64,000 nt of DNA from Candidatus Woesearchaeota archaeon (lineage in GTDB: Archaea; Nanobdellota; Nanobdellia; SCGC-AAA011-G17; UBA489). This document shows positions 61,392-64,000 of this stretch, piece by piece. The notes beneath the pieces are model-generated. The model ran no database searches and was not told the DNA's origin. It worked only from the letters and a program-made list of their open reading frames with translations. Position 1 is the stretch's first letter. Each line of letters opens with the position of its first letter. The stretch is from contig JABIKK010000005.1 of NCBI GenBank assembly GCA_018655015.1, positions 1 to 64,000 on the forward strand. The letters are read 5' to 3'. The position numbers and the translations under genes are program-made.

Positions 61392-61464
61392 AGCCCCGTA
61401 GTGTAGTGGTCAAGCATGGGGGATTTTGGGTCCCTCGACCCAGGTTCGAATCCTGGCGGGGCTA
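61392..61464 (+). tRNA. tRNA-Gln (anticodon TTG)
   Basis: Acceptor AGCCCCG pairs with CGGGGCT, the D arm contains TAGTGGTCAAGC, and the anticodon stem GGGGA/TCCCT encloses loop TTTTGGG, giving anticodon TTG. The T arm CCAGG-TTCGAAT-CCTGG is canonical. CCA is not encoded and no intron is present. Position 61464 is the discriminator A. Confidence 0.93.
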
Positions 61465-61512
61465 TTTTTCTTAATGAAAAATCTTATAAATGAATTAATC
61501 GAGATTTTACAG

Positions 61513-61564
61513 AAGGGTGAATCAGTGAAAGCTGAGTCATACTGGATTTATTCTAGTGACCCTT
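61513..61564 (+). promoter_or_regulatory. Candidate three-way-junction RNA in the rps15 leader
   Basis: Three nested helices close a junction just before rps15. P1: 61513-61518 with 61559-61564 (AAGGGT/ACCCTT). P2: 61519-61525 with 61532-61538 (GAATCAG/CTGAGTC, one A-G mismatch, loop TGAAAG). P3: 61541-61546 with 61552-61557 (ACTGGA/TCTAGT with one G-U, loop TTTAT). It ends 8 nt before the ATG, after a TATA-like CTTATAAAT (61483-61491). S15 is known to bind three-way junctions in 16S rRNA and in bacterial rpsO leaders, so autoregulation is a reasonable guess. A 13-codon GTG-started ORF (61525-61566) overlaps it. Confidence 0.4.
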
Positions 61565-61572
61565 AATTCAAA

Positions 61573-62028
61573 ATGGCAAGAAGATACTCAAAGAAGAAAG
61601 GCGTAAGTGGTAGTACTAGACCTGTTAATGTGGATAATTCTGCATGGGTTAACAAGGATGTAAAGGCTGTTACAGATGTTATAGTTGAGCTTGCTAAGGC
61701 TGGTAAAAGTGCTAGTCAAATTGGAATTGTTTTAAGAGATTCTTATGCGGTTCCAGATGTTAAAGAGGCTTTTGGTAAAAGTATCGGTACTATTCTAACT
61801 GAAGGTGGAATTAAAAAAGAAGTTCCAGATGATTTATTATCTTTGATTAGAAGGGATATTGCAATTGCTAAGCATATTGAATCCAATAAGAAGGACATGA
61901 CTGCTAAGAGAGGACAGCAATTAACTTTGAGTAAGATTAACAAACTAGTTGGATACTACAAAGCAACTAGTGTTCTAAGTGCTGATTGGACCTATGACAG
62001 ATCCAAAGCTATGCAGTGGATTGTTTAA
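61573..62028 (+). CDS. rps15: Ribosomal protein uS15 (archaeal S15/S13e)
   Basis: A 30S protein that binds the central domain of 16S rRNA early in assembly. 151 residues, the archaeal length with the N-terminal extension (ARRYSKKKGVSGSTRPVN), then GKSASQIGIVLRDSYAVPDV (~40-59) and the C-terminal S15 core (IVLRDS..., HIESNKKDMTAKRGQQLTLS, WTYDRSKA). It is first of the rps15 - recJ-like - rps3ae run, a conserved archaeal order. Its leader holds a possible structured RNA. Confidence 0.95.
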   Translation: MARRYSKKKGVSGSTRPVNVDNSAWVNKDVKAVTDVIVELAKAGKSASQIGIVLRDSYAVPDVKEAFGKSIGTILTEGGIKKEVPDDLLSLIRRDIAIAKHIESNKKDMTAKRGQQLTLSKINKLVGYYKATSVLSADWTYDRSKAMQWIV

Positions 62029-62081: not shown

Positions 62082-63509
62082 ATGGGGCAGGATCTTTTAG
62101 ACTACATAGGTGAAGTATCTTCAGATTTTTTAGATGTGGTGAGTAAAAGTTCTAAACCTGTTAGAATTGTTGGTAACTTGGATACAGACGGGATAACTTC
62201 TACTTCAATTATTTGTAAGACATTATCTAGATTGGATATTCGATATGTTGTCTCTGTTGTAAAGCAAGTTAATTCGGAATTGTTGGATGCCCTAAAAAGA
62301 GAGGATTATGATGTGATTATTTTTTCTGATTTAGCGACTGCTTATATTACTGAATTGAGTAATGAATTTGATAACGATATATTTGTTTTAGATCATCATT
62401 TTCCAGAGGTGGAGGAAAAAAGAGTTGGAAAAGTTAGGCAAGTTAATCCTCATTTGTTTGGTGTTAATGGTACCAAAGAAATATCTGCTGCAGGAATTTC
62501 TTATTTCTTTGCAAAGAGCCTTAATGAAGTGAATAAGGATATGTCCTATCTTGCATTGGTAGGTGCTATTGGAGATATGCAGGAAGATTATGGGTTTAAG
62601 GGAATGAATTGTTTAATTTTAGAAGATGCACTTTCAGAAGGAACTGTTGAGATTAAAGAAACTTTGAGATTATTTGGTATTCAAACTAAACCCTTGCACA
62701 AAGTTTTAGAGTATAGTACTAACCCTTACATTCCAGGCGTTACTGGAAGTGAAAGGGGAGCCATTAAGTTTATTGAGGATTCGGGAATAGAATTATATGA
62801 TAAGGCTAGGAAGGTTAGAAGACTTGTTAATTTAAGCAAACAAGAGTTAGCGAAATTAGTTACCGCTATTGAAATTAAGAAAACTTCTGGAACTATGGCA
62901 GAATCTACAGTCGGACCTGTATTTTTGCTAAAGGATGAAGATGAGGATAGTTTAAAGAAAGATTTGAGAGAGTTTTCAACTTTATTAAATTCTTGTGGTC
63001 GAATGGGTTGGCCTAGTTTGGGGATTGGCGTATGTTTGGGCGATAAGGTTGCATCCAAGAAGGCGAATGAATTATTGAGAAGTTATAGAAAAGAAATAAT
63101 TGATGCTTTGAATTGGTATTATGAAAATAGAAGTACTCCCAATGTTTTGGAGAAAAAAGGTTATGTGATTATTTTAGCGGGTTCGAACATAAGGGATACG
63201 ATTATTGGGACACTTGCATCTTTGTTAGCTAAAAGTAAGGTTTATCCTGATGGGACAATTATAATGTCCACTGCATATACTCTTGATGGACTCATTAAAG
63301 TTAGTTTGAGGATTACAGGAGATACAGATTCTGATACAGACTTGAGAGTGATTATTAAGGAGTTAGTTGCTGAAGGCGGAGGTTATGGTGGAGGGCATAA
63401 GTTGGCGGCAGGTGCTTCTATTCCTCAAGAGAAGGAAGATATTATGGTGAGAGAAGCTATTTCTTCTTTGAATAAATATGTTAGTAGCAGGGCTGTTACT
63501 GCTGAATAA
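62082..63509 (+). CDS. DHH-family RecJ-like exonuclease (GAN-like)
   Basis: A single-strand exonuclease of the archaeal RecJ/GAN group, which associates with GINS and is related to eukaryotic Cdc45. DHH-domain metal motifs: GNLDTDGITS (~31-40, where most have DxD), FSDLAT (~86-91), LDHH (~103-106), GAIGDM (~161-166). The DHHA1 domain has GGGYGGGHKLAAGAS (~431-445). 475 residues. The gene sits between rps15 and rps3ae; the GINS subunit is encoded at 50168-50797. Confidence 0.9.
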   Translation: MGQDLLDYIGEVSSDFLDVVSKSSKPVRIVGNLDTDGITSTSIICKTLSRLDIRYVVSVVKQVNSELLDALKREDYDVIIFSDLATAYITELSNEFDNDIFVLDHHFPEVEEKRVGKVRQVNPHLFGVNGTKEISAAGISYFFAKSLNEVNKDMSYLALVGAIGDMQEDYGFKGMNCLILEDALSEGTVEIKETLRLFGIQTKPLHKVLEYSTNPYIPGVTGSERGAIKFIEDSGIELYDKARKVRRLVNLSKQELAKLVTAIEIKKTSGTMAESTVGPVFLLKDEDEDSLKKDLREFSTLLNSCGRMGWPSLGIGVCLGDKVASKKANELLRSYRKEIIDALNWYYENRSTPNVLEKKGYVIILAGSNIRDTIIGTLASLLAKSKVYPDGTIIMSTAYTLDGLIKVSLRITGDTDSDTDLRVIIKELVAEGGGYGGGHKLAAGASIPQEKEDIMVREAISSLNKYVSSRAVTAE

Positions 63510-63554: not shown

Positions 63555-64000
63555 ATGGCAAAAGGTAAAAAAAATAAGAAGAATAGCACAAAAGGAATTG
63601 CTAAACCGAAGCCTAAGATTACTAAGAAGCAAGCAACCGTTAGAAAGAAGAAGAAAAAATGGTTCGGCATTATTGCTCCTAAGGAATTTAATAATAAGCT
63701 AATCGGAGAGACTTTTGCTGCAGAGCCTGGAGAAATGGTTGGAAGGGCTTTAAAAGTTAATTTAATGAATTTGTATAATGACTATAAGAGGCAGGGCGTT
63801 AATCTTAGATTGAAAGTTGTTTCTGTAAATGATGATAATGCTGTTTGCAAGACTGTTGGTTATGAATTATTAAAATCGCATTCAAGAAGGGCTGTTAGAA
63901 AAGGAACAGATAAGATGGACGATTCTTTTGTAGCAGAATCCAAAGATGGGGCTAAATCAAGAGTTAAGCCAATGATAATTACAAGGCATAGAGTTTCAGA
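63555..64000 (+). CDS. rps3ae: Ribosomal protein eS1 (S3Ae), partial at window end
   Basis: The first 148 residues of eS1, a 30S protein. The N-terminus is very basic (AKGKKNKKNS), followed by KKKWFGIIAPKEFNNKLIGE (~37-56), then TFAAEPGEMVGRALKVNLMN and the core with KSHSRRAVRKGTDKMDDSF. The ATG is at 63555. TATA-like GGTTTATAAC (63521-63530). The last gene of the rps15 cluster, cut by the window end. Confidence 0.93.
   Translation, partial: MAKGKKNKKNSTKGIAKPKPKITKKQATVRKKKKKWFGIIAPKEFNNKLIGETFAAEPGEMVGRALKVNLMNLYNDYKRQGVNLRLKVVSVNDDNAVCKTVGYELLKSHSRRAVRKGTDKMDDSFVAESKDGAKSRVKPMIITRHRVS

Follow-up and report, generated by a model that had tools for sequence, protein, structure and literature searches.

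The window, a stretch of 64,000 nucleotides from a Candidatus Woesearchaeota assembly of 0.7 Mb, most of whose named relatives within the class are likewise Candidatus Woesearchaeota, carries near its end, on the forward strand and in this order, a tRNA gene, a TATA box, a folded element, rps15, a RecJ-like DHH gene and rps3ae. The rps15 gene (61573–62028, with its ATG at 61573) encodes a uS15 protein of 151 amino acids that is recognised by Pfam PF08069 and PF00312 and by uS15 chains of the PDB. It is followed by a RecJ-like DHH phosphoesterase gene (62082–63509; Pfam DHH, DHHA1 and DHH-CID), the second gene of a probable operon, and by rps3ae (eS1; 63555–63998; Pfam PF01015), the third, which is truncated by the window end. 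The TATA box CTTATAAAT occupies positions 61483–61491, its first base lying 32 nt upstream of position R1 of the element (61515). The tRNA gene (61392–61464) is on the same strand, with about 50 nt separating its end from the leader, and directly precedes the rps15 TATA box.

The original prediction placed three helices of 6, 7 (with one mismatch) and 6 bp at 8 nt before the rps15 start codon, and the minimum free energy (MFE) fold of 61513–61564 reproduces them as a three-way junction of −17.9 kcal/mol (z −3.6), with 0 of 200 shuffles as stable. P1 pairs AAGGGU (61513–61518) with ACCCUU (61559–61564) over 6 bp, and the start codon stands 8 nt after it. P2 comprises in this fold 7 bp (61519–61526/61531–61538) with one A·G mismatch and a GAAA apical loop (61527–61530), and P3 comprises 6 bp (61541–61546/61552–61557), to which the fold adds one extra U·G pair. 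The G-C pair next to a G-U pair that had been pointed out in P3 is likewise present, as G61544·U61554 next to G61545-C61553. When folded in 154 nt of context, the element region is unexceptional (z −0.5), so that a comparison of relatives was needed.

Across rps15 loci taken from 50 genomes of the window's order, most leaders were found to share a motif consisting of RGAUAAGYCGGU, a loop, GCUUACUUAUACC and then a UUCU-bearing hairpin. A covariance model (R2) detects the element in 66 of 103 genomes of the order and in 100 of 378 genomes of the class, and a second model (R3) in 118 of 371 genomes sampled across the phylum, all within the same class; every genome with the element has exactly one match in these searches. 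The rps15 gene was detected directly downstream in 62 of the 65 loci fetched with flanks, a count that includes a few genomes seen before, and in 59 of 62 once matches already examined among the first 50 loci are left aside. At the remaining three loci (L135, L144 and L155) the rps15 operon has gained a small unrelated ORF between the element and rps15, which explains these apparent elements before other genes, and the association of the element with the rps15 operon is essentially complete. The inserted ORFs (for L144 see L161, for L155 see L162) are of unknown function and differ in each genome, and the leader would act on them first; the gene set of rps15, DHH/RecJ-like gene and rps3ae is also present in L161 and L162. 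One match in a MAG labelled Methanosarcinales (L193, JAFCBX010000038.1) was set aside, as its leader is almost identical to that of a Woesearchaeota record (L196) and the contig is probably mis-binned.

Compensatory changes among relatives, which the original prediction had named as the check on its three helices, are clearest in P2. Its core is a hairpin of ten positions (61517–61526 and 61531–61540) with a conserved mismatch, usually C·U among relatives, and its base is extended by two pairs, R1-G2 (61515–61516) with C61542-U61543, beside a conserved purine (61541) that is bulged once these pairs form. In an alignment of 100 sequences (A3), whose fitting favours most P2 pairs because they were already part of the model, 91% of the cells of the extended P2 are paired, and changes on both sides occur in nine of its twelve pairs, with 159 such cells. 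The covariation score of P2 is about twice that of shuffled alignments, is reached by 0 of 500 shuffles and is lost once the partner strand is slid by one column or more. The R1-Y29 pair, which lay outside the model used for fitting, is G-C in 59, A-U in 30 and G-U in 10 of the 100 sequences; A-C does not occur, and on a weakly supported tree of rps15 proteins the pair type switches at least 21 times. G2-C28 and one inner G-C pair of P2 are invariant in all 100, and the pair beside the invariant P2 G-C is G·U in 68, A-U in 20 and U-A in 8. The apical loop is variable, with long insertions in three relatives (L012, L048 and L124) that keep the P2 body, some of these insertions carrying a hairpin of their own; the loop is unlikely to serve as a contact site.

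P3 (61541–61557) varies in length and sequence, and its pairs show no excess covariation in a fixed alignment register. Since the absence of such a signal is attributable to the changing length of the hairpin, P3 was tested by folding, where it beats shuffles at p < 0.05 in 72 of 99 leaders. Its UUCU (61551–61554) is nearly invariant overall and invariant in an alignment of 26 sequences. The properties of P2 and P3 also bear on the idea that the conserved feature is a DNA element, namely an operator palindrome. In favour of this idea, P2 shows dyad symmetry (AAGT..ACTT) and coincides with the predicted start of the transcript; however, many of its variants are G·U pairs (68 of 100 at one pair), the bulge and the mismatch are asymmetric, and P3 stays a hairpin while its sequence changes. 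Because of the G·U pairs and the asymmetry we reject the palindrome, to which we would give almost no weight, in favour of a structured RNA.

P1 gains support only in subsets of lineages, the window's genus among them, and is not general. By duplex energy alone it is weak (p = 0.185 in the window), and it was therefore retested by full folding with shuffled or swapped flanks. A P1-closed junction appears in 24 of 100 predicted folds, compared with 10 ± 3 when flanks are shuffled and 12 ± 3 when they are swapped between genomes, and this set includes all four examined members of the window's genus as well as L005 of a sister genus. G61515 and G61516 of the window are claimed both by P1 and by the conserved base of P2, and of these competing pairings P1 is favoured energetically (−18.6 versus −8.5 kcal/mol), so that the two may be alternative states. 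Of the original reading as an archaeal S15 leader, a folded RNA leader that accompanies the rps15 operon is thus upheld across the class, whereas the P1-closed junction as drawn is not, the best-kept part being P2 with R1-Y29 and G2-C28, which compete with P1.

The position of the promoter places the element within the message. Of 100 leaders, 95 have a TATA-like box whose first base lies 28–39 nt before the element, with a mode of 31. From this position and the usual archaeal spacing between TATA box and transcription start, transcription in the window is predicted to begin at 61509–61515, either right at the 5' edge of the element or only a few nucleotides away from it; the element would then make up nearly all of the 5' UTR. 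Among eight leaders of the order that lack the element, the TATA box lies 30–33 nt before the ATG in six (L006, L007, L035, L036, L043 and L046), which fits leaderless rps15 genes, and the other two (L019 and L028) have longer leaders without a recognised element. The leader was probably lost in genus g2 (L006 and L007), which belongs to the window's own family. Since several families without the element look leaderless, the control appears to be dispensable. That some relatives manage without it, and that it occupies nearly the entire leader close to the AUG, would also suit a 5' UTR element with a purely structural role, which helps translation to start or stabilises the messenger but exerts no feedback control. 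However, one would expect a general stability element to precede other genes too, and this one occurs as a single copy per genome, always at the same operon; we regard such a role as quite improbable.

The original prediction knew of no described archaeal example of an S15 leader, but S15-Halobacteria and S15-Methanomicrobia were published in 2020: such leaders lie before rpsO, recJ and rps3ae in Halobacteria and Methanomicrobia, resemble the rRNA junction and have S15 as their presumed ligand (Eckert and Weinberg 2020, PMC7247131). Like S15-Methanomicrobia (RF03137), the Nanoarchaeial leader is a structured 5' leader of archaeal rps15 with recJ and rps3ae downstream. The model of RF03137, in contrast, consists of a leading hairpin followed by a stem enclosing two hairpins, resembling the 16S junction, and it gave no match to Nanoarchaeial leaders at E values up to 10; as a control, it recognised a Methanomicrobiales leader (L223) with 62.4 bits. 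S15-Halobacteria shares the downstream gene set and the presumed S15 ligand, but is described only for Halobacteria, and it is set apart from the present element by this description and the lack of an Rfam match. In bacteria, S15 binds the 5' UTR of rpsO and represses its own gene through leaders that present stacked G-C/G-U pairs or a three-stem junction. The Nanoarchaeial element has a step of R-U next to G-C in P2 and P3, and its P1–P3 can form a junction, but the bacterial leaders differ in structure and lineage, and no bacterial S15 family of Rfam matched the Nanoarchaeial leaders. Searches of Rfam with the window and 25 related leaders, at E values up to 5 or 10, returned no relevant family.

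The conserved RNA structure, its exclusive link to the rps15 operon and its position between the TATA box and the start codon are observed. By this position and conservation the element is very likely an S15 leader, outside both described archaeal families. We therefore consider it probable, with good confidence, that the element acts in cis as an RNA leader of the rps15 operon, is confined to Nanoarchaeia (Woesearchaeota and relatives) and represents a third type of archaeal S15 leader working by translational autorepression, S15 binding being what we infer. S15 as the ligand, repression as the outcome and translation as the controlled step are each most likely, judging from position and gene association. 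Based on this reading, we propose the following hypothetical mechanism, in which (i) transcription would start at or a few nucleotides before the element; (ii) P2, with the purine bulge at its base, its conserved mismatch and its invariant G-C by G·U/A-U, would form together with P3 the binding site for free uS15, P1 closing in some lineages; (iii) excess S15 would bind and stabilise the fold a few nucleotides upstream of the AUG; and (iv) the bound protein would hinder the small subunit and lower rps15 translation, possibly together with that of the downstream recJ-like and eS1 genes.

Archaea have so far yielded few cis-regulatory RNAs. A search of the open literature found no such leader reported in DPANN archaea and no cis-regulatory RNA reported for these small-genome lineages. 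The element is a compact target of about 45–50 nt supported by covariation, and it would add another independent solution to S15 binding, a standard case for the evolution of RNA–protein recognition. Its absence from some families with leaderless-looking rps15 offers a natural experiment on the purpose of the leader.

A comparison with 16S rRNA bears on how S15 might recognise the leader. Steps of the form 5'-RG-3'/5'-CU-3' occur in both P2 and P3, and the invariant G-C beside G·U/A-U in P2 and the R-U beside G-C in P3 are reminiscent of the stacked G-U/G-C to which bacterial S15 binds. At the equivalent place in 16S h22, a reading by eye of 12 relatives shows A-U or G-C beside G-C in most and G·U in one, and the step is absent in the window's genus. 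Model R3, run on 12 loci with the 16S genes of relatives, gave matches at chance level only, and no 16S match was obtained in the window's own assembly. The want of convincing 16S mimicry, together with the presence of genes for eS1 and a DHH protein in the operon, would agree with a conserved rps15-operon leader that regulates alike and responds to another protein, such as the operon-encoded eS1, or to a small molecule. This alternative is nevertheless unlikely in our view, since nearly every locus has rps15 as its first gene and retains it where a small ORF intervenes, and the leaders that precede this gene set in other archaea are presumed to bind S15 (PMC7247131). Taking S15 as the ligand, we tentatively extend the preferred reading, in a form that we hold to be possible but doubtful: the leader may represent a third, independently shaped class of archaeal S15 leader across Nanoarchaeia, able to bind uS15 with no copy of the 16S sequence, and it may switch folds, with G61515-G61516 pairing either with C61542-U61543 at the P2 base or with the strand after P3 to form P1, and S15 selecting the fold that hides the start site. 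As a side observation, 16S matches in two relatives (G003:C4:21278-23576 and G058:C5:2405-4823) span about 2.3–2.4 kb compared with the 1478 positions of the model, which suggests insertions (introns) of about 0.8–0.9 kb in these 16S genes.
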